A DNA stretch of 20,780 nt. Origin: a virus. Below are positions 1,873 through 20,561 of this stretch, piece by piece (the stretch's first letter is position 1; each line of letters begins with the position of its first letter). The translations under genes and the position numbers were made by a program. Below the pieces are notes generated by a model. The model was given only the letters and a program-made list of their open reading frames with translations, did not search any database and was not told the DNA's origin. The stretch is from positions 1 to 20,780 of the IMG/VR virus record IMGVR_UViG_3300031622_000568, one strand, 5' to 3'.

Positions 1873-2631
1873 ATGAGCAAAAAAGTTGTACTAGTAACTG
1901 GCGGGTTTGATCCGCTACACAGCGGACACATAGCATATTTCAAAGCAGCTAAAACATTAGGCGACACACTTATAGTCGGCCTTAATTCAGATGAGTGGCT
2001 TGAGCGTAAAAAGGGTCGATCCTTTATGCCGTGGAATGAACGCCTTTGTATAATTAATAACCTATCAGTAGTAGACGAAGTGTTTACCTTTATGGACAAT
2101 GATGATACTGCTATAAACTTTATAAAACAAGTTAAAGCACACTATCCTAAAGACAAGTTAATATTTGCTAACGGTGGCGATAGAACAGCAGACAACATTC
2201 CAGAAATGGTAGTTGACGGTGTTGAATTTGAATTTGGCGTAGGCGGCAAAGATAAAATAAACTCAAGTAGTTGGATACTTGAAGAATGGAAAAATCCAAA
2301 GACTATTAGAGAATGGGGATGGTATCGAGTTCTTGACACCCAAATAGGTTATAAGGTTAAAGAATTAGTTATTGCACCAGGAAAAAGTCTAAGTAATCAA
2401 CGACATTTTAAAAGAAGTGAACATTGGTATGTACTTAAAGGCCAGTGTGCGTTAACTACAGAATGGGATGATCGGGCGACAACGTCTTTACTAACTGAAC
2501 TAACATCTGGGTATGCTATTGGACAAAAAGTATGGCATCAAGCATCTAACAATACTAAAGATTTATGCCATATACTTGAAGTACAATATGGGGAAGAATG
2601 TGTGGAGGAAGACATTGAGCGAAGAACTTGA
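1873..2631 (+). CDS. Cytidylyltransferase-like domain fused to a C-terminal cupin
   Basis: The 252-aa product joins two domains. Residues 1 to about 135 form a nucleotidyltransferase of the glycerol-3-phosphate cytidylyltransferase / HldE C-terminal type. It has the GGFDPLHSGH motif (HxGH at 16-19) and the following GLNSDEWLERKKG segment, which activate a phosphorylated sugar or alcohol with CTP or ATP. Residues from about 165 to the end form a cupin resembling the C-terminal sugar isomerase domain of type II mannose-1-phosphate guanylyltransferases (HFKRSEHWYVLKG). I start at ATG 1873 rather than the upstream in-frame TTG at 1861, because 1873 follows the previous stop by 1 base. The substrate is unknown. 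One chain may combine isomerisation or sensing with activation of a sugar phosphate. The 3' end overlaps the next gene. Confidence 0.8.
   Translation: MSKKVVLVTGGFDPLHSGHIAYFKAAKTLGDTLIVGLNSDEWLERKKGRSFMPWNERLCIINNLSVVDEVFTFMDNDDTAINFIKQVKAHYPKDKLIFANGGDRTADNIPEMVVDGVEFEFGVGGKDKINSSSWILEEWKNPKTIREWGWYRVLDTQIGYKVKELVIAPGKSLSNQRHFKRSEHWYVLKGQCALTTEWDDRATTSLLTELTSGYAIGQKVWHQASNNTKDLCHILEVQYGEECVEEDIERRT
2604..2617 (+). promoter_or_regulatory. Shine-Dalgarno deciding a TTG start
   Basis: GGAGGA at 2604-2609 lies 5 bases before an in-frame TTG at 2615, inside the end of the upstream gene. An ATG at 2588 is also in frame but lacks a comparable site. This supports translation of the glycosyltransferase fusion from TTG 2615 by coupling with the upstream gene. 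Confidence 0.6.
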
Positions 2632-4315
2632 ACCTTTAAAGATTTTTATAGGATGGGACAGCAGAGAAGACATTGCTTATCAAGTATGCAAACAAAGTAT
2701 TCTTGATACTGCAACAGTACCTGTTGAAATTATACCATTAAAATTAGATGAACTACAAAAACAAAACTTGTATACTCGAGAACAAGATGTATTAGGTAGT
2801 ACTGAATTTACATTCAGTAGGTTTATGATTCCGTATCTTACAGACTATAAAGGCTGGGCATTGTTTATTGATTGCGATTTTATCTTTAAGAAAGATGTTG
2901 CACACTTATTTGAACTTAAAGATGACAAATATGCAGTAATGTGTGCTCATCACGATTATACTCCTAAAGAAGGATCAAAGATGGACGGGCAAGCACAATT
3001 ACCTTATCCAAGAAAAAATTGGTCGAGTATGGTTCTTTGGAACTGCGAACACCCTAGTAATAAAAAAGTAGACTTACGATTAATTAATGATAAAAAAACA
3101 AGTGGTGCATTCCTTCATAGATTTTCTTGGTTAGCTGATAAAGAAGTAGGAGAAATAACTCATCAATGGAATTGGTTAGTAGGTTGGTATAAAGAACCAC
3201 AAGATGGTACTCCGTGGGCATTACACTATACTGAAGGTGGTCCTTGGTTTGAAGGATTTGAAGATTGTGAATATGCATTAGATTGGGTAAGATCAAAATC
3301 AAATTATTACCAATCTCAGCTAGGTAAATTTTATGCAAGAGATAACCGAGCAGCATTACGAAAAATAGACGTTAACGAGTTAACAGTAAGTGAACATGCT
3401 AAACAACTATTAAACTTGACATTACAAGAATTAGTAGATCCTAATGAGCTAGTATATAAAGAAACTAAGTCTAAAATACAACAAATAAAGGAGGATGCAA
3501 TGGGGAAGAAAGTTGCAGCAATTAATATGCCTGACTTTAATAAATTAGGTGTAACAGCAAAAGGTCTAGCGTATGATCCTTTTTGTGAAGACTTTATACT
3601 AGGTAGTGGTGGTACATTAAGTGACTTTGATAGACAAGTAGGTACTGATAATGCTTTGGTTATTAGAGGATTAGGCGGTGGTGGACAAAAAGCCATTAAG
3701 TATTGTAAAGAAAATAATAGAGACTTTTATGCAATTGATACTGGCTACATGCAACCTGGCAGTAGAAAAGACTATCATAGAATTACAAAAAATAATCTAC
3801 AAAACTTAGGACCAATAATAGAACGGCCCGACGATAGGCTATCAACATTAGGCTGGCGTGGTAAAAAAATGAGAAAAGGTAGTTATATTTTAATATGTCC
3901 ACCAAGTCCAAAAGTAATGAAATTTTACGGACAAGATGTAGACGAATGGATGGAACATGTACTATCTGAACTTCCAAAATATACTGATAGAGAACTTAAT
4001 GTAAGACTGAAACCTTCAAGAAGAGAACGAGTGTCAAATATGTCTATATATGATGCACTAGAAGAAGCACATTGTCTTGTAACATTTAATAGTATAGCTG
4101 CAACAGAAGCATTATTTTTTGGTAAGCCTGCTATTGCATTGGCACCTAATGCTGCACAAGCATTATGTAATAATAAACTTAGTGAAGTTGAAGACTTAAA
4201 CTATCCTAGTTTAGACGAAGTGCATGCATTTGCCGCTCACTTATCGTATTGCCAATTTACGCCAAATGAACTTCGAACCGGGTATGCTTGGAGCATAGTC
4301 AATGAAGGTAGTTAG
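2615..4315 (+). CDS. Two-domain glycosyltransferase (GT-A-like N-terminus, polysaccharide-biosynthesis-like C-terminus)
   Basis: The product is 566 aa from TTG 2615, or 575 aa from ATG 2588. Residues 1 to about 290 look like a GT-A glycosyltransferase related to family 8: an N-terminal IFIGWDSRED, then FTFSRFMIPYL, and a metal-binding DxD (DCD, 86-88) in ALFIDCDFIF. From Met296 a second domain of about 271 residues begins. It resembles the proteins encoded at 4302 and 6066, sharing the strand LNVRLKP (Arg at 464), the TFNSIAATEALFFGKPAIAL segment near 490, and a C-terminal helix ending in a Thr-x-x-Glu-Leu-x-x-Gly pattern. The role is probably sugar transfer to a surface glycan. The Met296 codon has its own strong ribosome site, so a separate C-terminal chain may also be made. 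Acceptor and donor are unknown. Confidence 0.75.
   Translation: MSEELEPLKIFIGWDSREDIAYQVCKQSILDTATVPVEIIPLKLDELQKQNLYTREQDVLGSTEFTFSRFMIPYLTDYKGWALFIDCDFIFKKDVAHLFELKDDKYAVMCAHHDYTPKEGSKMDGQAQLPYPRKNWSSMVLWNCEHPSNKKVDLRLINDKKTSGAFLHRFSWLADKEVGEITHQWNWLVGWYKEPQDGTPWALHYTEGGPWFEGFEDCEYALDWVRSKSNYYQSQLGKFYARDNRAALRKIDVNELTVSEHAKQLLNLTLQELVDPNELVYKETKSKIQQIKEDAMGKKVAAINMPDFNKLGVTAKGLAYDPFCEDFILGSGGTLSDFDRQVGTDNALVIRGLGGGGQKAIKYCKENNRDFYAIDTGYMQPGSRKDYHRITKNNLQNLGPIIERPDDRLSTLGWRGKKMRKGSYILICPPSPKVMKFYGQDVDEWMEHVLSELPKYTDRELNVRLKPSRRERVSNMSIYDALEEAHCLVTFNSIAATEALFFGKPAIALAPNAAQALCNNKLSEVEDLNYPSLDEVHAFAAHLSYCQFTPNELRTGYAWSIVNEGS
3488..3502 (+). promoter_or_regulatory. Internal ribosome-binding site at the domain junction
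   Basis: AAGGAGG (3488-3494) is followed after 5 bases by an in-frame ATG at 3500, exactly where the second domain begins (Met-Gly-Lys-Lys). It is one of the strongest Shine-Dalgarno sequences in the window. It suggests either internal initiation or the relic of two genes later joined in frame. Confidence 0.6.
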
Positions 4316-5231
4316 TTATCTTAAAACTGTTCCAGGTAAGAACATCAATCCGCAAAAAGAACAACTGTTATATGACTTTGCTACAGGAGTTACTGCGGCC
4401 GGTGACATTGGAATAGTTCATCTAAACGATAACTTAGTTACTTGCGATGCAGCAATGATACAAGGATGGGTTTATGATAAGATCACTACTCCACATTTGA
4501 GATTAAGAAATTCTGTTATAAAATCACAAAAAGAATACGGTAAGCACACTATTACTGCTGATGCAAATTTGTTTTTATTTCATGATCCAAAAAACTCTAA
4601 AGAATATTTAAGATATAGTTTTGATGGTATTTTTCCTACTACAGGAATATACTGCGATACAACAATTAATGATAAACGGTGGAACTCTATTTCAAAAACG
4701 TTAAACCTCAATCTAGCACAGTACACAAGACAAGGACATCATATAGTATTAATGTGTCAACGTCAAGGAGGATGGAGCATGAAAGGCTATGAAGTTTTAC
4801 AATGGATAGTTGATACTGTAAAAAGAATACAATTACATACATCTAGAAAAATTATTATAAGAAGCCATCCGGGTGATAAACTAGCAGTAGATTATCTAGC
4901 AAACAAACCTGGACATCCGTTAGGGCAGTTTTCTAATGTAGAATTAAGTCCACCAGGACGTTTATTAGATGAAGATTTAAACGGAGCATGGGCAATAGTT
5001 AATCATAATAGTAGTGCAGCCGTAGGACCAATTATTAAAGGGTATCATTGTTTTTTAACAGACTCAAACGATAGCCAATGCAAAGAAGTTAGCAACACAG
5101 ATTTTAGTACAATCGAACAGCCTGAATTTTTTGATAGAGAATTATGGCTTAAACGAATAAGCATGTTTCACTGGACTTTTGAAGAATTAAGATCAGGAGC
5201 ATGCTGGAAACATATGAGAGAACATATATAA
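4302..5231 (+). CDS. Capsular-polysaccharide-biosynthesis-like protein (paralogue 2 of 3)
   Basis: This 309-aa protein shares a layout with the C-terminal half of the preceding protein and with the product at 6066. A strand HIVLMCQRQGGWSM is followed by a helix, then IIIRSHPGDK (R187-P190), then AWAIVNHNSSAAVGPIIKGY (NHNSS near 234-238), then a closing WTFEELRSGACW helix. The Arg-x-His-Pro strand followed by a Ser/Asn-rich nucleotide-sugar-like loop is reminiscent of GT-B-fold capsule enzymes (Kdo or sialyl transfer type), an inference from pattern only. The ATG overlaps the upstream stop by 14 bases, and GGAG lies 8 bases before it. The gene ends in TAATG, overlapping the next start. The reaction is not established. 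Confidence 0.6.
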   Translation: MKVVSYLKTVPGKNINPQKEQLLYDFATGVTAAGDIGIVHLNDNLVTCDAAMIQGWVYDKITTPHLRLRNSVIKSQKEYGKHTITADANLFLFHDPKNSKEYLRYSFDGIFPTTGIYCDTTINDKRWNSISKTLNLNLAQYTRQGHHIVLMCQRQGGWSMKGYEVLQWIVDTVKRIQLHTSRKIIIRSHPGDKLAVDYLANKPGHPLGQFSNVELSPPGRLLDEDLNGAWAIVNHNSSAAVGPIIKGYHCFLTDSNDSQCKEVSNTDFSTIEQPEFFDRELWLKRISMFHWTFEELRSGACWKHMREHI

Positions 5232-6076
5232 TGGATATCACAGTATTAACAACATTTCATCAACCAGGATTAGAAAAATACGGACAGAGATTTTTAGATA
5301 GTTTTGCAGAACGTGTAGATAATCGTATTAAGTTATTAGTATACGCAGAAAATTGTTCACCTATTAATCCTAATCCAGAGCAAATTACAATACTAAATGC
5401 AGTAGAAGTATTGCCTAAATTAAATGCATTTAAAGTAAAATGGAAAGACTCTCCAAAAGCAAATGGCATCCCACCAGAGGCTATTAAAGCACGTAGACCA
5501 CGTGATCATCATAAGGCTTTTAAATGGGACGCTATACGCTTCGCTAATAAAACATACGCTGTGTATGACGCTTGTACACGCTCTAAGGACTGGTGTGTGT
5601 GGATGGACGCGGATACGTTTGTACATAGTGATTGGAGTTATGATGATTTTATAAAACTTCTACCAAACGACAAATGGATTACATACGTAGGCAGAGGCAA
5701 GGGTTCAGCCACCTGGCCAGAGTGCGGGTTTTATGGAATGAATTTACATAACACAGTTTGTCAAGAGTTCTTAACAGAATTTGAACGGGTGTATGAAGAT
5801 GCTGACAATGGTATCTTTAAGTTAGAAGAATGGCACGATAGTTTTGTGTTCGGCGACATTTTAAATCGTATGATACAAACATATCCCAATGTACTAGACT
5901 ATACAGCTGAAATGATATTAAAAGGAGCTATTACCGGGGGCGGCGGTCATCCGTTAATTAACAGTGAATTAGGAAGATGGATGGACCATCTTAAAGGAGC
6001 CCGCAAAGAATCTGGAAAGAGTTTAGATAAAGATCTAGTAAAAAATAGGCAAGAAGAATATTGGAATGAAAGTTAG
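5231..6076 (+). CDS. GT-A-like glycosyltransferase
   Basis: The 281-aa protein opens with a beta strand MDITVLTTFHQPG and contains the DxD motif in WCVWMDADTFVHSDW (about residues 124-126), which binds the metal and nucleotide sugar in GT-A folds. An aromatic segment with ECGFYGMN and a helical C-terminus follow. The start at 5231 is preferred to an upstream ATG at 5201, because it overlaps the previous stop as TAATG and follows GAGAG at 5216-5220. It lies between two paralogues of a second transferase-like family, so the set probably builds one oligosaccharide. Donor and acceptor sugars are unknown. Confidence 0.75.
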   Translation: MDITVLTTFHQPGLEKYGQRFLDSFAERVDNRIKLLVYAENCSPINPNPEQITILNAVEVLPKLNAFKVKWKDSPKANGIPPEAIKARRPRDHHKAFKWDAIRFANKTYAVYDACTRSKDWCVWMDADTFVHSDWSYDDFIKLLPNDKWITYVGRGKGSATWPECGFYGMNLHNTVCQEFLTEFERVYEDADNGIFKLEEWHDSFVFGDILNRMIQTYPNVLDYTAEMILKGAITGGGGHPLINSELGRWMDHLKGARKESGKSLDKDLVKNRQEEYWNES

Positions 6077-6905
6077 TTTATGGACAGATTATGGTGCACT
6101 TAATAGTAGACCTATCTTTGATGCTTTTGAACACAGTCTTATATCTGCTGGGTGGACTGTTTCTCATAATGATGCTAGTGCCGATGTTAATGTTATTTGG
6201 AGTGTGTTGTTTAATGGACGAATGGCTGGAAACAAGAAAGTCTGGAAACAAACCAAACCAACCATAGTATTAGAAGTCGGTGGCATTAAAAGAGGTACAA
6301 CATGGAAGGTAGGACTAAATGGGATTAATAGAGATGCTTACTTTGGCCCCAATAATAACAATGACACTCGCCATCGTCTATTGGGCCTATCATTAAAACC
6401 TTGGCGTACTAGCGGAGAGTTTATTCTTATAGCAGGACAACACGATAAGAGTCTGCAATGGCAAGGTATGCCAAGCATGAGCCAATGGCTGATGAACACT
6501 ATTGATACTATTCGAACATATACCAACCGTCCTATACTATTCCGTCCTCATCCTCGTTGTCCATTACCAAATATTGAAAACGAATTTAAAAATGTTTATA
6601 GACAACAACCAGTACAACTACCAAACAGTTACGATGATTTTGACATAGGCTTTGACAACGTACACGCTACTATAAGCTACTCTAGTAACCCAGGCATTCA
6701 TAGTGTACTTGATGGCGTTCCTGCGTTTGTAGGTACTAGCTCGTTAGCGTACGACGTTGCTAACGACATAAACTCTATGAACAATATAGAAGCACCCCTA
6801 ATGCCTGATAGAACACAATGGCTTAACGACTATGCACACACCGAATATACAGTTGAAGAAATATCTCAAGGAATTCCACTTAAACACTTGACATTCAAGC
6901 TATAA
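6066..6905 (+). CDS. Capsular-polysaccharide-biosynthesis-like protein (paralogue 3 of 3)
   Basis: This 279-aa product is the third copy of the domain seen at 3500-4315 and 4302-5231. Shared landmarks in the same order are a strand FILIAGQ, a helix with TIRTYTNRPILFRPHPR (R160-P163), ATISYSSNPGIHSVLDGVPAFV (SYSSN near 204-208), and a closing helix YTVEEISQGIPLKHL. The opening residues MKVSLWTDYG and the segment IVLEVGGIKRGTTW suggest an N-terminal Rossmann-like half. It overlaps the preceding stop by 11 bases and is the last gene of the glycan island. The promoter for the next operon lies in its last codons. The function is probably glycan synthesis; the specific reaction is unknown. Confidence 0.6.
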   Translation: MKVSLWTDYGALNSRPIFDAFEHSLISAGWTVSHNDASADVNVIWSVLFNGRMAGNKKVWKQTKPTIVLEVGGIKRGTTWKVGLNGINRDAYFGPNNNNDTRHRLLGLSLKPWRTSGEFILIAGQHDKSLQWQGMPSMSQWLMNTIDTIRTYTNRPILFRPHPRCPLPNIENEFKNVYRQQPVQLPNSYDDFDIGFDNVHATISYSSNPGIHSVLDGVPAFVGTSSLAYDVANDINSMNNIEAPLMPDRTQWLNDYAHTEYTVEEISQGIPLKHLTFKL

Positions 6906-8141: not shown

Positions 8142-9599
8142 ATGGCAACATGTAAACTAATTATAGAAGACGAAGTTAATATAAAACTTGAAGGACTAGA
8201 CGTAGATGTACGAAGAGCAATTGCAAATAAGCTCAAGTTTGAAGTGCCGTATGCAAAGTATATGCCACAGTATAAGCTAGGTCGTTGGGACGGCAAAGTT
8301 GCATTCTTTGGTATAGGTGGAACAGGATATGTTAATCATTTAGATGTAGTGCAAGAAGTATTACGAAACAATCACGTAGAAATAACTTCAATTGATGATA
8401 GACGAGTACCGCTTGATTTAAAGTTTGATACTATCACCGAAGATTTTTGGGGAGATACAGTTTGGCCAGAAGGACATCCTGTAGCAGGAGAACCTATTCG
8501 TCTTCGAGACTATCAAGTTGAAGTAGTTAACAATTTTCTAACAAATCCTCAAGCATTACAAGAAGTTGCTACTGGTGCAGGTAAAACTATTATTACAGCT
8601 ACATTATCTAAACTTACAGAAAAATACGGGCGTAGTCTTGTAGTAGTTCCAAACAAGAGCTTAGTAACACAAACTGAAGAAGACTATATTAACTGCGGTC
8701 TTGACGTAGGAGTTTACTTTGGTGATAGGAAGATGTTAGGATGCACACATACTATTTGCACTTGGCAGAGCTTAAACATTCTTGATAAAAAGAATAAAGA
8801 CGGCACGGCAGTATTAAGTCTTGCAGAGTTTCTAGAAGGTGTAAGCACAATTATTATTGACGAAGTACATCAAGCAAAAGCAGAAGTACTTAAGAATTTG
8901 TTAACACGTAACTTACGTAATGCGCCAATTCGTTGGGGGCTTACTGGTACTGTGCCTAAAGAAAAGTTTGAGTTTGAAAGTATACATGCAAGCCTAGGTC
9001 CAGTTATTGGAAACATAACTGCTAAAGAGTTACAAGATAAAGGTGTACTTTCAAACTGTCATGTAAATGTTGTACAGTTAATAGACACAGTAGCACATAG
9101 TAATTACCAAGAAGAATTAAAATATCTTGTTACTAATACAAACAGGATTCAATATATAGGCAAACTATTAAACACAATTTCACAATCAGGCAATACACTT
9201 ATCTTAGTTGACAGAATCTCTGCAGGAGAACTACTTCAGGAAATTATTCCTAATAGTGTTTTCGTTAAAGGAGATATGAAACTAACTGATAGAAAAGAAA
9301 CTTACGATGAGATTAAAGAAGGCACTAATAAAGTTATTATCGCAACATATGGAGTTGCGTCAGTAGGAATTAATATTCCTCGTATTTTTAACTTGGTGCT
9401 TATTGAACCAGGCAAGAGCTTTGTTCGAGTTATTCAAAGCATAGGTAGAGGTGTACGTAAAGCAAAAGATAAAGACTTTGTTCAAATCTGGGATCTTACA
9501 TCAACTTGTAAATTTGCAAAACGACATTTAACTCAACGTAAGAAATTTTATAAAGATGCTCAATACCCATTTAGTATTGAAAAAGTAGATTGGAATTAA
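8142..9599 (+). CDS. uvsW: UvsW-like ATP-dependent DNA helicase
   Basis: The 485-aa protein is close to T4 UvsW (503 aa), a superfamily 2 helicase that remodels branched DNA, drives branch migration and unwinds R-loops during recombination-dependent replication. The N-terminal part (residues 1 to about 115) holds the family pattern KYMPQYKLGRWDGKVAFF. The helicase core then shows RDYQ (Q motif), Walker A ATGAGKT (143-149), motif II DEVH (240-243), motif III LTGT, a second RecA-like domain with TLILVDRI, and motif VI QSIGRGVR (432-439). All catalytic motifs are present. It starts 1 base after the upstream stop and shares its operon. Confidence 0.92.
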   Translation: MATCKLIIEDEVNIKLEGLDVDVRRAIANKLKFEVPYAKYMPQYKLGRWDGKVAFFGIGGTGYVNHLDVVQEVLRNNHVEITSIDDRRVPLDLKFDTITEDFWGDTVWPEGHPVAGEPIRLRDYQVEVVNNFLTNPQALQEVATGAGKTIITATLSKLTEKYGRSLVVVPNKSLVTQTEEDYINCGLDVGVYFGDRKMLGCTHTICTWQSLNILDKKNKDGTAVLSLAEFLEGVSTIIIDEVHQAKAEVLKNLLTRNLRNAPIRWGLTGTVPKEKFEFESIHASLGPVIGNITAKELQDKGVLSNCHVNVVQLIDTVAHSNYQEELKYLVTNTNRIQYIGKLLNTISQSGNTLILVDRISAGELLQEIIPNSVFVKGDMKLTDRKETYDEIKEGTNKVIIATYGVASVGINIPRIFNLVLIEPGKSFVRVIQSIGRGVRKAKDKDFVQIWDLTSTCKFAKRHLTQRKKFYKDAQYPFSIEKVDWN

Positions 9600-9612
9600 A
9601 GGGAATATATAC

Positions 9613-10119
9613 ATGAGAATTTTAACACTAGAAGATAAATGTTTTTCATTAACAAACTTACCGGACGAACTAGATGAAGATATAAGATTTGCAGTCTTAG
9701 ATAACAGCGACCCAAAAGATCCAGATTTCTTTTTTATTCCTTTGATTTTCTTAGAAAGTTTTAACGCTCCGGCAATGGTTTTAGAAATTAACGGCAACGA
9801 AATAATGATGCCACTTGATTGGTCAATTGCTGTAGGCGATAGCCAAAGCGGAAATGATATAGAAGTACTACCATTAACTAGTATTAACAATAGAGGATTT
9901 GAAGCATTTTTATTTAATCCGTTATCAAGTTTTAAAGTTGACTTTGCTGAAATTAAAATTACTAATTTTTACAATGATGTAAAATGGTATTTTCCTAAAG
10001 TTAAGAATGGACAGTTGCTAAGTGTTCCAATTACCGATGGAGATAAACCAAAATGTGCATATTTCATTAAAGAGATATCACGACAGTCTGAAACTATCGA
10101 CTATGGTGCGATATTATAA
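9613..10119 (+). CDS. Unknown protein downstream of uvsW
   Basis: This 168-aa acidic protein has no motif I can name. It is rich in beta-strand-like stretches (FFFIPLIFLESF, MVLEINGNEIMMPLDWSIAVGD, FNPLSSFKVDF, VKWYFPKVKNGQLLSVPI) and ends KCAYFIKEISRQ...IDYG. It looks soluble, without signal peptide or membrane segment. From memory, similar proteins occur in other T4-like marine phages, always uncharacterised. The start ATG follows uvsW by 13 bases with AAAGGG upstream. The position suggests co-expression with uvsW, but a functional link is not shown. Confidence 0.75.
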   Translation: MRILTLEDKCFSLTNLPDELDEDIRFAVLDNSDPKDPDFFFIPLIFLESFNAPAMVLEINGNEIMMPLDWSIAVGDSQSGNDIEVLPLTSINNRGFEAFLFNPLSSFKVDFAEIKITNFYNDVKWYFPKVKNGQLLSVPITDGDKPKCAYFIKEISRQSETIDYGAIL

Positions 10120-11393: not shown

Positions 11394-12076
11394 GTCGTTT
11401 AAATATTGCTATTTGTATACCAGCTAGAATTGCTAGTACAAGATTCCCTGATAAACCCCTCGCTTTATTAAATGGAGAACCTATGATAAGCAGGGTATAC
11501 AATCGTTGTCGTAAGACGGGGTTAGACACCTTTGTGCTTACTGATAGTAAAAGAATTGCTAGTTTATTTCCGCATGGTGATTTTATTATACAAGATGCTC
11601 CATATGAAAACGGCACTGAGCGATGTGCAGCCTTTCCACATATTAATAATTATGACGCAATTATTAATGTGCAGGGAGACATGCCTGACATTACAGTTGA
11701 TATCATTAAGAAAGTTGCTTATGGACTTTCAGTAAATGAATCACCAATTACAACAGTTTATACTAAGATGAATAAGGACTTGCAAAAAGATCCTAATAGT
11801 GTTAAACTAATACATACACATGATAGTGCTCATTGGTTTTGTAGAGCCGGATTAGAATACGGTGCTCACCATTTAGGTGTGTATGGATATACCTGTAAGG
11901 CATTAGCTACGTATCCGTCACTACATCAATTTGAAGAAGAACGTATTGAGAAACTAGAGCAACTTCGTTGGTTGCAAAATAATTATACTATGTCAGTATT
12001 TGAAACAGAATTTACTGGAATGGAAATTAACACACCAGAGGACCTAATTGAATGGCACAGACTAAACTCCCAATAA
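11390..12076 (+). CDS. kdsB: CMP-Kdo synthetase-like cytidylyltransferase
   Basis: The 228-aa protein matches KdsB (3-deoxy-manno-octulosonate cytidylyltransferase, usually about 245-255 aa). KdsB uses CTP to activate Kdo for lipopolysaccharide inner-core synthesis. Visible motifs are the N-terminal nucleotide loop IPARIASTRFPDKPL, NGTERCA, NVQGDMP with its metal-binding Asp, HLGVYGY, IEKLEQLRWL, and the closing INTPEDL. All are in the usual order, so the enzyme looks intact though slightly short. Related CMP-sugar synthetases with other sugars cannot be excluded. Together with the glycan island it suggests the phage makes or supplies activated sugar for a surface glycan. It has its own promoter and overlaps the next gene by 25 bases. 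Confidence 0.85.
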   Translation: MSRLNIAICIPARIASTRFPDKPLALLNGEPMISRVYNRCRKTGLDTFVLTDSKRIASLFPHGDFIIQDAPYENGTERCAAFPHINNYDAIINVQGDMPDITVDIIKKVAYGLSVNESPITTVYTKMNKDLQKDPNSVKLIHTHDSAHWFCRAGLEYGAHHLGVYGYTCKALATYPSLHQFEEERIEKLEQLRWLQNNYTMSVFETEFTGMEINTPEDLIEWHRLNSQ

Positions 12077-12522
12077 AAGACATACTTGCGGCAATTGATA
12101 TGAATGCTAAGAATGTTTGGAAAGAATTGTCTGTTGAAGAAAAGAAGCAAGTTAGCTTTTGGTTATTAAATAGATATGTTAGTGCAGTTCAAGGTAGTCG
12201 AGAAGATCAAGAACTTGCTATATTTAAAACTAACGAGTACTATAATAAAAATTTTAATATTATTGGTGTTGGCAAAGAAAACGGACACCAAGAGTTAATG
12301 TGGCAGTTACTATGTATGAGTGGTTCCTGGGGTAAAATTAAATTTCATCCGTATATTGGTTTTAAGAAAAAAACAGGTAATAACAATGCTATACTTAAAT
12401 TCTTAGAACAAATGTATCCTAATATGAAACAACATGAGGTGGAATTACTTGCTACAATATCTACAAAAAAAGAACTTAAACAACTTGCAGACGAACACGG
12501 GATTGAAAATGTTAAGTTCTAA
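12052..12522 (+). CDS. 62: Probable clamp-loader small subunit (gp62-like)
   Basis: The 156-aa helical protein resembles T4-family gp62. Gp62 pairs with the gp44 ATPase to load the gp45 sliding clamp on DNA. It has an early WLLNRYVSAVQ segment like the FIxNRxLS pattern of gp62, a helix with FKTNEYYNK, and a C-terminal STKKELKQLADEHGIE resembling the T4 gp62 ending. No catalytic residues are expected, since gp62 is not an ATPase. T4 gp62 is 187 aa, and shorter forms occur in marine relatives. The neighbour gene 44 is absent here. The start overlaps the kdsB-like gene by 25 bases, with AGAGGA about 10 bases upstream. The assignment is moderate. Confidence 0.55.
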   Translation: MAQTKLPIKDILAAIDMNAKNVWKELSVEEKKQVSFWLLNRYVSAVQGSREDQELAIFKTNEYYNKNFNIIGVGKENGHQELMWQLLCMSGSWGKIKFHPYIGFKKKTGNNNAILKFLEQMYPNMKQHEVELLATISTKKELKQLADEHGIENVKF

Positions 12523-13198
12523 TAAACCATTTGTATGTGAATATTGTAAGACAGGCTACATGAAGGAAAAGACGCTTGCAGTACACATGTGTGAACAAAA
12601 ACGTAGAGCATTACAGAAGAATGAAAAACGTGTACAGTTAGGATTAATTACATTTAATAAATTTTATCAAATAAGCATGGGTGCAAAAACTGAAAAGTCT
12701 TATGAAGATTTTTGCAAAAGTCAATACTATAATGCATTTGTAAAGTTTGGTAGTTTTATATCAAACGTCAAACCATTATACCCAGAAAAGTATATTGAGT
12801 ACGTAGTAAAAAGCGGAGTAAAATTAGACCATTGGTGCAAAGAAGAATTGTATGAAAAATATGCTTTGGAGTTAATTAGAAAAGAAGCAATGCAAACGGC
12901 AGTAGAACGTTCCATTATAAATATGATGGAATGGGCAGACGAAAACAATAGCCAATGGAATCATTATTTTAATTACGTAAGTTTAAACAGAGCAATTTGG
13001 CATATTAAAGATGGCAAAATAAGTCCGTGGATTATATTAAATTGTAAAAGCGGAAAAGAAATGCTAGGCAAATTTAACGATGAGCAACTTGGAATGGTTT
13101 ATAATATTATGGATCCAAGTCATTGGGCAATAAGGTTTAGTCGACAAAAGTCAGACGTAGAAACAGTTAAAGAAGTTGTAAAGGAAAGTAAACTATGA
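12509..13198 (+). CDS. Unknown protein with an N-terminal C2HC zinc finger
   Basis: The 229-aa protein starts at ATG 12509, overlapping the upstream stop by 14 bases. An earlier in-frame ATG at 12434 lies deep in the upstream gene and is less likely. Residues 10-28 form a zinc finger of pattern Cys-x2-Cys-x12-His-x-Cys (CEYCKTGYMKEKTLAVHMC), followed at once by a basic patch (EQKRRALQKNEKR). The rest is helical with several tryptophans and a conserved-looking SLNRAIWHIKDGKISPWIIL and GKFNDEQLGMVYNIMDPSHW. I recall homologues in T4-like marine phages without a known role. The zinc finger and basic stretch suggest binding to DNA, RNA or polymerase, near clamp-loader and polymerase-like genes. 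Confidence 0.72.
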   Translation: MLSSNKPFVCEYCKTGYMKEKTLAVHMCEQKRRALQKNEKRVQLGLITFNKFYQISMGAKTEKSYEDFCKSQYYNAFVKFGSFISNVKPLYPEKYIEYVVKSGVKLDHWCKEELYEKYALELIRKEAMQTAVERSIINMMEWADENNSQWNHYFNYVSLNRAIWHIKDGKISPWIILNCKSGKEMLGKFNDEQLGMVYNIMDPSHWAIRFSRQKSDVETVKEVVKESKL

Positions 13199-13494
13199 TA
13201 GACAAAGAACAAATTATAGCAAATTTACGTGAAGTATTTGATCCAGAGATTAGTATTAACATATATGATCTAGGATTAATATATGATATTAAAATTAATC
13301 AAGAAGACTTTTGGGTAGAAATTACTCATACATTAACTAGTGCATTTTGTCCATTTGCAGATCAGATCGTTAGTGATATAACAGGTGCAGGGTATGCACC
13401 AGAGGTTCTTAACGTTGAGGTGATAACTACATTTGATCCTCCATTTACTATGGACAGTGTGTCAGAAGAAACAAAAATGATAATGGGGTGGTAA
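13195..13494 (+). CDS. SufT/MIP18-family iron-sulfur assembly protein
   Basis: The 99-aa product fits the small MIP18 (DUF59, PaaD/SufT) family, which helps mature or deliver Fe-S clusters. Hallmarks are VFDPEISINIYDLGLIYDI (residues 14-32) and TLTSAFCP with Cys52 at the expected reactive position, then a valine-rich strand and a short C-terminus. The full domain is present. Phage copies are thought to support Fe-S proteins of host metabolism or phage enzymes; which client is served here is unknown. The start ATG overlaps the previous stop by 4 bases, and the deformylase begins 8 bases after the stop. Confidence 0.88.
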   Translation: MIDKEQIIANLREVFDPEISINIYDLGLIYDIKINQEDFWVEITHTLTSAFCPFADQIVSDITGAGYAPEVLNVEVITTFDPPFTMDSVSEETKMIMGW

Positions 13495-13501
13495 TAAAAT
13501 T

Positions 13502-13999
13502 ATGAAATTAATTAAATACCCAGACGACTTCTTAGATAAAAAAGTAAACGAGGTAGACTTATTAAATCCCGGGTTTGATCCAAAAGAATTAAAAAAACAA
13601 ATGGTTGACTTAATGTTAGCTAGTAAAGGTATTGGACTGAGTGCAAATCAAATTGGATTAAATGCTCAAGTATTTGTAATGGGAGAGAATGCTAATAATG
13701 CTATTATATGTATTAATCCTGAGGTACTACAACATACAGAAGAAACAGTAATAGACACTGAAGGTTGTTTAAGTTTTCCAAACGTATATGTAAAAGTTAA
13801 GCGACCTAAAGAAATACTTGTAAAATATTATGATGAAAATTTAAAAGAAATAAGTACTAAGGTCATTGGATACTCAGCTAAGTGCTTTCTACATGAATGG
13901 GATCATTTACAAGGTGTTACATTTAAAGATAGAGTATCAAAACTTAAATGGGATATGGCACAAAAAAAAGCAAGTAAACTAAGGAATATTAATGCCTGA
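13502..13999 (+). CDS. def: Peptide deformylase
   Basis: The 165-aa protein carries all three deformylase motifs: GIGLSANQIG (43-52), EGCLSFP (87-93, metal ligand Cys89) and HEWDH (131-135, ligands His131 and His135, catalytic Glu132). The enzyme removes the formyl group from the N-terminal methionine of nascent proteins, using Fe2+ or another divalent metal. The length is normal for bacterial enzymes and the C-terminus is short, as in other phage deformylases. Known phage examples process host or phage proteins, including photosystem D1 in cyanophages. All catalytic residues are intact. It overlaps the next gene by 8 bases. Confidence 0.93.
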   Translation: MKLIKYPDDFLDKKVNEVDLLNPGFDPKELKKQMVDLMLASKGIGLSANQIGLNAQVFVMGENANNAIICINPEVLQHTEETVIDTEGCLSFPNVYVKVKRPKEILVKYYDENLKEISTKVIGYSAKCFLHEWDHLQGVTFKDRVSKLKWDMAQKKASKLRNINA

Positions 14000-14558
14000 T
14001 ATTGATATAGACTTTGCCGACAGAAACATTGTCCTATCATTAATTAATCATAGGGTTGCAAAACTAGATACTGGAAAGAAACATAACACCGGAGTTTATG
14101 TTACTGAAGTACCACACAACCCTGTGGATAACTTATCTACTATTAACTACAAAGATGCAGAAGATCGGGGCTACTTTAAATTAGACTTTCTAAATGTAAG
14201 TATATACAAAGAAGTAAAAGATCAAGAACACTTAACACAGCTTATGGAGAAGGAACCATTATGGCAACTACTGGAACACACGGACTTCAGCGAAAAAGTA
14301 TTTCATCTAAACGGGCACAGCAGTCTATTAAAACAATTGAAGCCTACTTCGATCAAAGAATTAGCTGCGACATTAGCAATAATACGACCAGCCAAGAGAT
14401 ATCTAGCGAACGAGAGCTGGGACAAGATACACAACGAAGTATGGACTAAGCCAACTGATGGTAATTACTTCTTTAAGAAAGCACATGCAGTTAGCTATGC
14501 AATGGTGTGTGTAGTACATATGAATTTATTATGCGAGGATCTAACTAGTGGAAATTGA
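13992..14558 (+). CDS. Miniature DnaE-like protein (C-family polymerase core fragment)
   Basis: The 188-aa protein matches, in order, the core motifs of bacterial DNA polymerase III alpha, which is normally over 1,000 aa. PDIDIDF (2-8) matches the PDFDVDF catalytic motif and keeps both aspartates (D5, D7). HNTGVYVTEVP (31-41) matches the H-x-x-GVV strand. YFKLDFLNV (61-69) matches KFDFLGL with the third aspartate, D65. VFHLNGHSSLLKQLKPTSIKEL (103-124) and IIRPA (130-134) match VFQLES..MR..L..LKP and the ALYRPGP segment. FFKKAHAVSYA (160-170) matches the KSHA helix. The PHP, tau-binding and OB domains are missing. Whether it polymerises is unknown. The start overlaps the deformylase by 8 bases and the ORF is intact, so it is not a decaying gene. 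Confidence 0.78.
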   Translation: MPDIDIDFADRNIVLSLINHRVAKLDTGKKHNTGVYVTEVPHNPVDNLSTINYKDAEDRGYFKLDFLNVSIYKEVKDQEHLTQLMEKEPLWQLLEHTDFSEKVFHLNGHSSLLKQLKPTSIKELAATLAIIRPAKRYLANESWDKIHNEVWTKPTDGNYFFKKAHAVSYAMVCVVHMNLLCEDLTSGN

Positions 14559-15210
14559 CGAGTATAGAACTGTATTAGCAGACATACAAAAGAGAAATTG
14601 GAAAGACGCAGAAGGTAATAAACTAAATGACATTGGGTATAAGTATTCAAAGAACTTTTGGAATTACTATAACGAAAAACAATTTTGTATAGAACATATG
14701 GACTTAACAGATGTTAACACAGTGCTTGACATCGGCGCCGGTGTTGGCCTGCTTGGAGTGATATTAGAGAACATTGAGCATTTAGATATTACAGTTGAAG
14801 CAACTGATATAGAAGAAACATTTGTTGGCGGAATGTATCAAGAAATATTTGCACACATGAAAACACCAAGACACATGTGTGAAATAAAAAACAAAATACC
14901 AATTGTACTTCCAAAACATTACGATATGATTACCATGACTAGAACAGTGTTTGATCGAGAAGAAATGAAAGATCTTGAAAAATTTGATTATGAATTTTTT
15001 CTTAATGACATATTTCAATACTGTGATCGTATTTTTTGGAAAACAAATTATCAAAATTTAAAAAGTAAAAAGTTGTTTCCTGAAAGCGTACAGCCGTTCT
15101 TGTGGTGGCCAATGAAGAGATTAGAAGATAATCAAAGACTATTTTCTATGGATAAACCGTACCGTGCTTGGTACATTGTACTTACTAAGGAACAGTGGGA
15201 GAACCGATAG
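14548..15210 (+). CDS. Class I SAM-dependent methyltransferase
   Basis: The 220-aa product has motif I at residues 59-70 (VLDIGAGVGLLG), an acidic motif II (ATDIEE), and a strand DMITMTRTVF before FLNDIFQYCDRIFWKTNYQ. The N-terminal region (YSKNFWNYYNEKQFCIEHMDL) is aromatic and probably covers the cofactor. The acceptor is not identifiable. The start is GTG 14548, with GAGGA at 14535-14539 and 11 bases of overlap with the DnaE-like gene. It differs from the 698 and 1251 methyltransferases and is not an obvious duplicate of either. The stop overlaps the next GTG start. Confidence 0.78.
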   Translation: MEIDEYRTVLADIQKRNWKDAEGNKLNDIGYKYSKNFWNYYNEKQFCIEHMDLTDVNTVLDIGAGVGLLGVILENIEHLDITVEATDIEETFVGGMYQEIFAHMKTPRHMCEIKNKIPIVLPKHYDMITMTRTVFDREEMKDLEKFDYEFFLNDIFQYCDRIFWKTNYQNLKSKKLFPESVQPFLWWPMKRLEDNQRLFSMDKPYRAWYIVLTKEQWENR

Positions 15211-15380
15211 TGAACGAAACCCCTTGCGAAAATTGTAGGATTGTAATATCTGAAAAAGGAATTGAGGTTGATAATAGCTCAGGAGATATAGTTGCAGAAG
15301 CTATTGTTATATCAGGACTATTAGTATTAATATGTATAGTATATACATTCAAAAAATGGATTGATAGAAAGTTTAAATAA
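15210..15380 (+). CDS. Small single-span membrane protein with a CxxC pair
   Basis: The 56-aa product starts at GTG 15210 (TAGTG overlap with the previous stop, GGGAG about 9 bases upstream). An alternative GTG at 15195 would add five residues. It has Cys6-x2-Cys9 near the N-terminus, a hydrophobic span at about residues 28-46 (EAIVISGLLVLICIVYTF), and a basic tail (KKWIDRKFK). The basic tail suggests the C-terminus is cytoplasmic. Function is unknown. It ends in TAATG with the next small membrane protein gene. Confidence 0.6.
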   Translation: MNETPCENCRIVISEKGIEVDNSSGDIVAEAIVISGLLVLICIVYTFKKWIDRKFK

Positions 15381-15610
15381 TGCAGTATGAAGTTGTTGAT
15401 TATAGAAAACCCAAGAAGCCTAATGTAGGACCTTGGTTAACTTATAATGTTCCTGAAAAGTTTGCTCTCGGATATGTATGGAAATTATTTTTTTATATGT
15501 TTCTAATACCGTTTGTATTAGGATTTTCAATTTCACCAATTGGTATATTTCTTAACTTTATAATATTTGATTACATCTATTATAGATACATTAAGTATAC
15601 TATTTCTTAG
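15380..15610 (+). CDS. Small membrane protein
   Basis: The 76-aa product has a soluble, basic N-terminus (about 28 residues) and two close hydrophobic stretches (about 32-50 and 53-68) separated by a Pro-Ile-Gly turn. It is rich in phenylalanine and tyrosine. It is coupled by TAATG to the upstream small membrane protein, so the two may act together at the inner membrane. The last 11 bases overlap the 3' end of the convergent minus-strand gene. No family is recognised. Confidence 0.6.
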   Translation: MQYEVVDYRKPKKPNVGPWLTYNVPEKFALGYVWKLFFYMFLIPFVLGFSISPIGIFLNFIIFDYIYYRYIKYTIS

Positions 15611-15971
15611 GTCGTCTTACAAGTTGTACTGATTTACGTTTTATACGTTTAATTGAAAGATTTCCTAAGTTAACACATGGTCCTACAGTTACTTTAACAT
15701 CTTTAGAGTTCATTGTCATAAGAGCATACTGAAACGGTTCGAACTCAGCTCTTAAAAATATGTTAACTGGAATTAGTCTATTCGATTCCCACCACCATAT
15801 TTCTCCTAAATCTAAAAACACTTGTTTATGCACATCAGAATTAAGAGTCGTATACACATACATAGATGTTACGTGTTGATCCTGATTTACTATTATACCT
15901 ACATATTCAGCACCGCCGTATGTAGCAATACTAATAAACGGGTAATTTTCTTCTATATCTTTAAGTAGCAT
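15600..15971 (-). CDS. Unknown protein, only minus-strand gene in the window
   Basis: This 123-aa frame runs opposite to everything else and has no plausible plus-strand competitor. Its ATG (complement of 15969-15971) is preceded on the minus strand by AAAGAGA. The protein is a compact alpha/beta sequence with the distinctive stretch FLDLGEIWWWESNRLIPVNIFL near residues 51-72 and a very basic C-terminus (SIKRIKRKSVQLVRRPKK) suited to nucleic-acid contact. I recall similar proteins in T4-like marine phages, uncharacterised. It converges on the small membrane protein gene with an 11-base tail overlap. On its 5' side it is divergent from the structural gene at 16002. Confidence 0.75.
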   Translation of the reverse strand: MLLKDIEENYPFISIATYGGAEYVGIIVNQDQHVTSMYVYTTLNSDVHKQVFLDLGEIWWWESNRLIPVNIFLRAEFEPFQYALMTMNSKDVKVTVGPCVNLGNLSIKRIKRKSVQLVRRPKK

Positions 15972-16828: not shown

Positions 16829-17809
16829 ATGAGTATAGTAATAGAAACAGTTCTGACATACCTTCCGCAAAAGCGTAAAACAACACCTAGTGGTTGGGTT
16901 TCTTTCAATGCTCCCTGTTGCCAGCACAACGGCCAGTCGCTAGACAATAGACAACGTGGCGGCGTTATCCAAGAAGGTGAACATATAAGTTATCATTGTT
17001 TTAACTGTGGGTTTAAGGCCAGCTGGCAACCTGGTCGCAATATATCATTTAAACTTCGTAGTCTATTGCAATGGCTACATGCACCAGATGATGTAATTAA
17101 TAAACTTGCATTACAGGTTATGCAGGAAAACGAAGGTATACATGTACAACAGAAACTAGTTGAATTACCTACATTTGAAACAGTCCCCTTACCTGATAAT
17201 GCTATTAAGTTAACAGACATTACTGACTTCAACAAACATAACTTAGCTATACTTGAATATATGTCAACACGTAACTTACATGTTGACGACACAGAATACT
17301 ATTGGTCTTCTAGCCTTGGTTATCGAGATCGTCTTATAGTTCCATTTTATTATGACAAACGTATTGTAGGATGGACAGCTAGGACTATACAAGCAGATAG
17401 CAAGTACAAATATATGTCTGAACAGCAACCTGGCTATGTGTTTAACTTAGATGAACAACGCCCACAAAAGATATTTGTCGTTGTATGCGAAGGCCCTATT
17501 GATGCGTTACATGTAGACGGTGTTGCATTACTCGGAAGTGAAATCAAAGATCAACAGGCTATGTTGATTAATCGGTTAAGTAAAGATGTAATAGTTGTTC
17601 CGGATAGAGACGAAGCCGGAAAGAAATTAATCGAACAAGCAATTGAGCTTGGTTGGGGAGTAAGTTTACCAGACTGGGAAGTAGGTATAAATGATATTGG
17701 GGACGCAGTTAATAAACACGGAAGGTTATACGCATTGCATAGAATAGTAAGTGCAGCTGAAACTAGTCCTTTGAAAATTAGACTTAAGGAGAAAAAATGG
17801 TTCAATTAA
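16829..17809 (+). CDS. 61: DNA primase (gp61-like)
   Basis: The 326-aa product is close to T4 gp61 (342 aa). Gp61 makes short RNA primers for lagging-strand synthesis and works in a complex with gp41 helicase. The N-terminal zinc-binding region has C30/C31-x-H33 and, after a loop, HCFNCGFK (C57, C60), a CxxH...CxxC-type finger. The C-terminal half holds the TOPRIM fold: VVVCEGPIDALHVDG with catalytic Glu221, and VVPDRDEAGKKL with Asp259 and Asp261. All key residues are present. It has its own promoter and is likely leaderless. Its 3' end overlaps the next small gene by 13 bases. Confidence 0.92.
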   Translation: MSIVIETVLTYLPQKRKTTPSGWVSFNAPCCQHNGQSLDNRQRGGVIQEGEHISYHCFNCGFKASWQPGRNISFKLRSLLQWLHAPDDVINKLALQVMQENEGIHVQQKLVELPTFETVPLPDNAIKLTDITDFNKHNLAILEYMSTRNLHVDDTEYYWSSSLGYRDRLIVPFYYDKRIVGWTARTIQADSKYKYMSEQQPGYVFNLDEQRPQKIFVVVCEGPIDALHVDGVALLGSEIKDQQAMLINRLSKDVIVVPDRDEAGKKLIEQAIELGWGVSLPDWEVGINDIGDAVNKHGRLYALHRIVSAAETSPLKIRLKEKKWFN

Positions 17810-18958: not shown

Positions 18959-19135
18959 ATGGGAATAAATGATAAAATATCTGAAGAAGATAAAAAAATG
19001 ATGGACGAGTGGCTTAAGAAAAACAAAGTCACTGTAGGAAAAACAAAACCTATGCCGTCTGAACTTGGTATTAGTAACATCACTTGGAACAATAAGTTAA
19101 CGAAGGCAGAGAAAAAAATAAAAGATGGCAACTAG
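18959..19135 (+). CDS. 58-aa small protein upstream of the gp41 helicase
   Basis: The frame begins at ATG 18959, just after a strong promoter, and its last 11 bases overlap the helicase start. The product is highly charged and lysine-rich: a helical N-terminal half (ISEEDKKMMDEWLKKNKVTV) and a tail PMPSELGISNITWNNKLTKAEKKIKDGN. It has no hydrophobic span. Being first in the helicase transcript, it may couple translation into gp41 or act with it. I know no function. It is below the size many gene finders report, but position and overlap support it. Confidence 0.65.
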   Translation: MGINDKISEEDKKMMDEWLKKNKVTVGKTKPMPSELGISNITWNNKLTKAEKKIKDGN

Positions 19136-20561
19136 ACAGAACACAGACTATGGACATGATATACAAAAAGTATATCTAGAAATGATGCTGACTGATGCTG
19201 AGAGCTTCGTTCGGTGTCAGGCTGTGTTTGACCCAATGGCATTTGATAGACGCTTACAGGAACCAGCAAAGTTCCTAACTAATTATGTAAGTGATCATAA
19301 TGCACTTCCTACGTTTGATATGATTAATGCAGCAACAAATGCAAACTTAGCAGCACCCGACGCACCGTTGCAAGAAAATCATTATGATTGGTTGCTATTA
19401 GAGTTTGAAACGTTTAGTAGACACAAAGCATTAGAAGCAGCAATACTTAAAAGTGCAGACTTACTTGAAAGTGGCGACTATGGACCAGTAGAAGATTTAG
19501 TTAAGAAGGCTGTCCAAATTGGATTACAAAAAGACTTGGGTACAAACTACTTTGATGATCCTAGGGCTAGACTAGAAGCTATTAAAGATAACAACGGACA
19601 AGTAAGCACAGGCTGGGCTGCATTAGATAAGAAACTGTTTGGTGGATTTAACAGAGGTGAGCTTAATATATTTGCAGGTGGATCAGGTGCAGGTAAGAGT
19701 TTGTTCTTAGCTAACCTAGGTGTAAACTTTGCACAGAAAGGTATGAACGTACTATACCTAACATTAGAACTTAGTGAGAACTTAGTTAGTATGCGTGTTG
19801 ACAGTATGCTAACAGAGATTAGCACACGTGATATCTTTAAGAACATTGATGAAGTAGAATTAAAAGTTAAGATGATAGGCAAGAAGAGTGGGGCGTTTCA
19901 GGTTAAGTATATGCCTTCAGGTAAAACGCCTAATGACATACGTAGTTACATTAAAGAATACGAAATTAAAACAGGACGTAAGATAGACGTACTACTAATT
20001 GATTATCTAGATTTGCTTATGCCGAATGGTGCTAAAGTAAGTGCAGAGAACTTGTACATCAAAGACAAGTACGTATCAGAAGAGTTACGTAATCTAGCAA
20101 TGGAATTACAAACAGTATTTGTTACAGCAGCACAGTTGAACCGTGGTGCAGTAGAAGAAATTGAATTTGATCACTCGCATATATCAGGTGGACTGAGTAA
20201 GATACAAACTGCTGATAACGTGTTTGGTATCTTTACAAGTAGAGCAATGCGTGAACGCGGACGCTATCAACTACAGCTAATGAAGACACGTAGTTCAAGT
20301 GGAGTTGGAAATAAGATTGATCTAGGATTTGATGTTGACAGCTTACGCATATTTGATCTAGATGAAGACGATGAAGGCGACAACTATCAAACAAGTTCAG
20401 GTAGCTCAACTATTATGGACACATTAAAACGAAGTAGTAGTAATACTCCAGCAGAGTCTAGAGAAGATCCAACAGAAGGTTCTAGTATTGGCAAGGTAAG
20501 AGCAGAAACTGATAGTACAAAACTTAGACAATTTTTAAACAACTTGCCTGGCGATGAATAA
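19125..20561 (+). CDS. 41: Replicative DNA helicase (gp41-like, DnaB family)
   Basis: The 478-aa protein equals T4 gp41 (475 aa) in size. Gp41 is the hexameric 5'-3' helicase at the replication fork and works with gp61 primase. The N-terminal part (to about residue 150) is the helical collar. The RecA-type core then shows Walker A GGSGAGKS (185-192), a following VLYLTLELSE, Walker B DVLLIDYLDLL (Asp293 as the motif Asp), a FVTAAQLNR sensor segment, and LQLMKTRSSSG near the arginine-finger/H4 region. The C-terminal tail is acidic and serine-rich. All catalytic motifs are present. It begins 11 bases inside the 58-aa gene and shares its promoter. Confidence 0.95.
   Translation: MATRQNTDYGHDIQKVYLEMMLTDAESFVRCQAVFDPMAFDRRLQEPAKFLTNYVSDHNALPTFDMINAATNANLAAPDAPLQENHYDWLLLEFETFSRHKALEAAILKSADLLESGDYGPVEDLVKKAVQIGLQKDLGTNYFDDPRARLEAIKDNNGQVSTGWAALDKKLFGGFNRGELNIFAGGSGAGKSLFLANLGVNFAQKGMNVLYLTLELSENLVSMRVDSMLTEISTRDIFKNIDEVELKVKMIGKKSGAFQVKYMPSGKTPNDIRSYIKEYEIKTGRKIDVLLIDYLDLLMPNGAKVSAENLYIKDKYVSEELRNLAMELQTVFVTAAQLNRGAVEEIEFDHSHISGGLSKIQTADNVFGIFTSRAMRERGRYQLQLMKTRSSSGVGNKIDLGFDVDSLRIFDLDEDDEGDNYQTSSGSSTIMDTLKRSSSNTPAESREDPTEGSSIGKVRAETDSTKLRQFLNNLPGDE

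Follow-up and report, generated by a model that had tools for sequence, protein, structure and literature searches.

A conserved replication neighborhood

The DNA analyzed here (the window) makes up the whole of a record, 20,780 bases long and classed as a virus fragment, from an uncultured, probably marine virus of bacteria. At 13992..14558 on the + strand lies a 188-residue open reading frame that, from the reading frame, profile matches and fold, we assign as the C-terminal chain of a split DNA polymerase III (Pol III) α subunit (phrog_11778); we refer to it as the C-half. Its coordinates and intact frame are as given in a preliminary description made from the sequence alone. The gene shares 8 bases with the peptide deformylase gene upstream and 11 with the next open reading frame downstream, which starts with GTG.

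Several neighbors of the C-half gene are conserved. Upstream, on the + strand, are a UvsW-type helicase (8142..9599), two proteins without an assigned function (phrog_11279, 9613..10119; phrog_11758, 12052..12522) and a C2H2-type zinc-finger protein (phrog_11058, 12434..13198), named after a relative annotated as C2H2-type. Downstream are a small convergent gene (phrog_11637, 15600..15971, − strand), a Toprim DNA primase (16829..17809, + strand) and a DnaB-family (gp41-like) replicative helicase (19125..20561, + strand). The order (uvsW), C2H2-type protein, C-half, convergent phrog_11637, primase and DnaB-type helicase is common to marine contigs and to jumbo phages of Pseudomonas, Sinorhizobium, Cronobacter and Agrobacterium, with intervening genes that vary; uvsW falls outside the stretch read, or is unmatched, in two of the compared loci. 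In the window, the variable cargo comprises an Fe-S assembly (PF01883) protein and the peptide deformylase upstream of the C-half (13195-14000) and a putative methyltransferase and two small open reading frames downstream (14548-15607), which appear as insertions in an otherwise conserved replication neighborhood. A carbamoyltransferase-like gene (PF02543, 17957-18952) lies between the primase and the helicase, and a run of open reading frames at 2513-6905 resembles, by eye, glycosyltransferase or capsule-type proteins.

Relatives of the C-half occur in at least 548 viral contigs in IMG/VR, in the closest of which (L001) the protein is identical, and in 63 of 50,697 phage records, mostly those of Rak2-like and other jumbo phages. 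Several jumbo phage records (JN882285.1, KU574722.1 and relatives) label the protein "putative membrane protein," a mis-annotation. Pairwise comparison with ten relatives gives a dN/dS of ~0.1, at near-saturated dS, and shows that purifying selection acts on the gene.

C-family motifs on a 188-residue chain

Judged by sequence family and predicted fold, the protein is a C-family (DnaE-type) homologue. The PHROG profile phrog_11778 ("DNA polymerase") matches residues 3-186 (E 2.6e-62), and phrog_405, which represents full-length phage DnaE, matches more weakly (E 1.2e-10). The Pfam DNA_pol3_finger match (0.0015) is below the Pfam cut-off, and a match to DUF2000 (E 0.05) was discarded as too weak. 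An AlphaFold2 model, for which the input was 68 sequences from the window and viral contigs, has a mean pLDDT of 93.0 and a pTM of 0.82. When this model was searched with Foldseek, the top 15 matches were all bacterial Pol III α or PolC (best E 1.9e-4), and no match outside the C family had an E below 1. VIA-align placed the model on the Taq Pol III ternary complex 3e0d (Z 9.8, residues 461-841, 185 aligned, 3.5 Å) and on E. coli 4jom 403-780 (Z 8.8), with the next unrelated row at only Z 3.7; the model corresponds to E. coli Pol III α residues ~401-780. The resemblance to the DnaE palm and fingers that had been proposed by eye was thus recovered by PHROG, Foldseek and VIA-align. As global hhalign of the C-half profile against the single E. 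coli DnaE sequence misplaced the first strand into the thumb (probability 18), and the same profile failed to align with a 548-residue DnaE, we preferred motif spacing and structure alignment for assigning residues.

All of the motifs named in the preliminary description are present, in DnaE order. Of the 80 closest relatives, nearly all begin, like the C-half, with MPDIDIDF, and many have few in-frame codons upstream of this start. The motif PDIDIDF (13995..14015, +) is thus at the extreme N terminus and is covered by a predicted strand (E4-8) in the AlphaFold2 model; by motif alignment and numbering, D3, D5 and D7 are the equivalents of E. coli D401, D403 and D405. H31-N-T-G34-V-Y (14082..14099, +) corresponds to the palm strand H511-A-G-G-V-V of E. 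coli, and K63-L-D65-F-L (14178..14192, +) to K553-F-D555-F-L, with D65 as the third catalytic aspartate. The start of the fingers, assigned from the Pfam finger match and motif spacing, runs from L116-K-P118 to R132-P133 (14337..14390, +), with a P-to-R spacing of 14 residues that equals that of E. coli 625-639. Finally, the helix K162-K-A-H165-A-V-S-Y169 (14475..14498, +) matches E. coli NKSHSAAY, which contains H760. The ordered set was found in 0 of 200,000 shuffles of the C-half residues, using a pattern that was written after the sequence was seen.

The catalytic aspartates of E. coli DnaE are D401, D403 and D555, whereas D405 is invariant in DnaE and Asn in PolC (PMC3919608). Since PDFDVDF of E. 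coli begins at residue 400, the catalytic residues correspond to D3, D5 and D65 of the C-half, and no catalytic aspartate is missing. The triad had earlier been given as D5, D7 and D65; D5 and D65 were correctly placed, but D7 is the equivalent of D405 and the true third member is D3. Among distinct homologues that have the site, D3, D5, D65 and D7 are identical in 154 of 154, as are H31, G34, K63, R132, P133, K162, H165, Y169 and N178. The expectation that phage homologues would conserve D5, D7 and D65 was therefore borne out for each residue, although D7 lies outside the triad and D3 within it. The invariance of D7 in this family follows the DnaE rather than the PolC pattern.

The C-half shares with bacterial DnaE (E. 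coli DnaE, Taq 3e0d) the palm strands bearing D401/D403/D405/D555, K553 and H511, the start of the fingers, the KxHA helix and the fold over the common part. Unlike bacterial DnaE, it has no PHP, thumb, HhH, clamp-binding, OB or C-terminal domains and lacks most of the fingers; the absence of all PHP, OB and β/τ-binding regions from the 188 residues had been recognized previously. Set against the domain limits of E. coli DnaE, the interval from D401 to H511 has shrunk from 110 residues to 28, indicating that the thumb is gone, and the interval from R639 to H760 has shrunk from 121 residues to 33, indicating that the fingers segment LRRAMGKK (E. coli 708), whose arginines have a role, has also been lost. 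The GPGRGS palm segment (E. coli R362) is absent as well, and the chain ends 23 residues past the KxHA histidine H165.

The other half of the palm and its distribution

The nucleotide-binding part of the palm, which contains GxGRGS (E. coli ~276-393), is encoded by a second gene of ~170-185 amino acids (phrog_11127), here called the N-half, so that the palm of the phage enzyme is divided between two chains. In C-family and pol-β-like enzymes, the GxGRGS segment contacts the triphosphate. Searches with PF07733 detected the N-half in all five jumbo phages examined (CBB, GAP32, PA5oct, Atu_ph07 and Phosso; 8e-13 to 3e-9), and GxGRGS is invariant in 142 of 142 N-halves. An AlphaFold2 model of the N-half (pLDDT 92.9) aligned in VIA-align with 5lew (Z 13.3) and with E. 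coli 4jom 280-393 (Z 11.9), such that it fits E. coli 280-393 and Mycobacterium 304-413 (Z 11.9-13.3). The N-half has the C terminus ...GRGSSVxSYxLxLIGxHxVxSxxYxLDxxEFL; its last residue corresponds to E. coli N393 or lies one or two positions beyond, and the C-half starts at the equivalent of M399/P400. Sequence and models thus place the end of one chain and the start of the other only a few residues apart in the shared parent fold. One N-half relative (L351:2584-3513, +) lies at the C terminus of an open frame of 310 codons and may carry an N-terminal extension.

Because the triphosphate-binding half of the palm lies on a second gene, the C-half is not a self-sufficient α core. This result, together with the missing thumb and LRRAMGKK segment, runs against the self-contained "miniature α core" of the preliminary description. 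That the C-half nevertheless works as a self-sufficient miniature nucleotidyltransferase is highly improbable: all three metal ligands are on the chain and a good fold is predicted for the chain alone, but the triphosphate-contacting GxGRGS is missing and is instead kept in a partner that co-occurs with it. A search with PF17657 gave no further finger match elsewhere in the five jumbo phages. We also looked for the missing fingers or thumb on a further, third fragment and found no credible candidate, as the weak PF07733 matches at L096/L097 contain stop codons.

The two halves are found together in most of the records examined. With tblastn, the N-half was detected in 60 of the 63 isolate records that contain a C-half, rising to 61 of 63 when a profile search was added; since many isolates are close relatives of one another, these numbers count records rather than independent lineages. 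The N-half of Alishewanella phage Slicko01 (141 kb) was missed by tblastn and found by profile (E 7e-17). The other two isolates without a tblastn match are a second Alishewanella record, searched by tblastn only, and PP728206, which at 109 kb is shorter than its ~350-kb relatives. We examined 13 metagenomic records that measure 220 kb or more and contain one half or the other; 11 of them contain both. L040/G001 (261,806 bases), in which PF00136 also found no family B polymerase, has a C-half without an N-half, and L362/G042 (359,044 bases) has an N-half without a C-half; contig ends may explain these single halves. In G001 and G003 the N-half may simply lie beyond the contig, which stops 81 kb (G001) or 11 kb (G003) past the C-half; in G002 and G021 the N-half lies ~120 kb downstream of it.

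From ~14 to 120 kb or more separates the halves, which are never fused and never adjacent. Besides the ~120 kb in G002 and G021, we measured about 30-38 kb for Rak2-like phages; in CM1 and XacN1 the distance falls to ~14-15 kb. Neither a fused N+C gene nor a single fetched locus containing both halves was found among the open reading frames and loci. A family B polymerase is present in every paired relative genome tested (five of five isolates and seven of seven large metagenomic records), in agreement with the earlier view that the replicase is a separate family B enzyme. No N-half is visible in the window, a record of only 20.8 kb; an N-half and a family B polymerase may be encoded elsewhere in the genome.

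Is the C-half an anti-host decoy or inhibitor, which mimics host Pol III α and titrates its partners? It is homologous to host DnaE, and a Pol III α is of no obvious use to phages with a family B polymerase. However, the clamp-, τ- and OB-binding parts expected of a decoy are absent and the active site is what remains; moreover, the N-half co-occurs with the C-half, which sits in a phage replication neighborhood. The decoy role raised in the preliminary description fits poorly with the invariant metal ligands, the invariant GxGRGS of the partner and the co-occurrence of the halves, and we consider it the least probable of the readings.

A proposed two-chain nucleotidyltransferase

In 2021, Iyer et al. 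(PMC7824862) used computation to describe, in jumbo phages of "group 2.2," a minimal DNA polymerase III α that is split between two genes; the CBB N-half had been called a "truncated" α subunit in 2017 (PMC5259590). The split enzyme itself is thus already published, and the C-half described here is a further member. The C-half belongs to the PHROG family of that system, and its relatives have the same two-gene split, with the genes far apart; the split of Iyer et al. comprises an NTP-binding N-part and a Mg/template-binding C-part in phages that also carry UvsW and a family B polymerase. The C-half here differs in coming from an uncultured phage fragment in which the N-half is not visible. Our analysis adds the exact junction, the corrected catalytic residues, the loss of the thumb and LRRAMGKK, counts of invariance and co-occurrence, structure matches for both halves and presence in a 141-kb non-jumbo phage. 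A literature search, which left out most subscription papers, found no experimental test of the split enzyme.

We propose, with a probability of roughly three in four, that the C-half is one chain of a two-chain minimal C-family nucleotidyltransferase that carries out accessory synthesis beside a family B replicase. In this model, the C-chain would supply the palm strands with metal-binding D3, D5 and D65, the conserved K63 and the base of the fingers, and the N-chain would supply the palm helix and loop in which GxGRGS grips the phosphates of the incoming nucleotide. We infer that the two chains pair non-covalently, such that GxGRGS faces D3/D5/D65 and K63 and a single two-metal nucleotidyl-transfer site is formed without PHP, thumb, most of the fingers, OB or τ-binding parts. 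The most likely activity of such a pair would be accessory synthesis in the form of primer extension, gap filling, repair or end addition. Since the thumb and most of the fingers are missing, the pair is unlikely to be processive by itself, and with the thumb and LRRAMGKK lost it may have little or no template-directed activity.

The same losses, and the presence of a complete family B polymerase in the paired genomes, would also be consistent with the C-half, with or without the N-half, being a catalytically dead structural or regulatory subunit, such as a DNA-binding component or adaptor of the family B replisome. In that case, loss of metal ligands would be expected. Instead, D3, D5, D65, K63, H31 and G34 and the GxGRGS of the partner are invariant despite deep divergence, with identity among homologues falling to ~45% for the C-half and ~34% for the N-half. 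We therefore regard a dead subunit as unlikely.

If the two-chain nucleotidyltransferase is the correct reading, what is its job? A role at the replication fork is suggested by the primase and DnaB-type helicase genes close by. A tentative possibility is that the pair, thumbless and with truncated fingers, serves family B phages at the fork in a specialized task other than that of the replicase, for example by briefly extending primers once the phage primase has acted, by filling gaps or by adding nucleotides to ends without a template. If so, a bacterial-type polymerase active site would have been kept as a two-gene enzyme alongside an archaeo-eukaryotic-type replicase. Many large phages with family B polymerases keep the bacterial-type site in two distant genes with all of its catalytic residues intact. 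An active pair would stand out among C-family enzymes for its small size and would serve as a minimal model of the requirements of a Pol III core; in an inactive pair, the unchanging metal ligands would be a puzzle. The exact chain boundaries, invariant residues and paired gene make a simple two-protein test possible.

Finally, some related metagenomic phages encode a compact, complete DnaE of ~548 amino acids beside a gp41-type helicase (L101:541-2187, −; L049:14167-15408; L450-L508). This protein has no PHP domain and contains RGS, LPDVDIDF, KHCGGI, VDIL, YRRAFAKK and RAHA motifs. Like the C-half, the compact DnaE (L101) and full-length phage DnaE (phrog_405) have C-family motifs in the same order; unlike the C-half, they are single chains, encoded by a separate gene, with near thumb-length spacing and an RRAxxKK segment. 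In seven contigs with the compact DnaE, all fragments of 39-108 kb, neither a family B polymerase nor a separate N-half was found. As a split C-half lies within ~8 kb of a compact DnaE in about 20 of the 59 fetched loci, one contig can encode both types of C-family protein.
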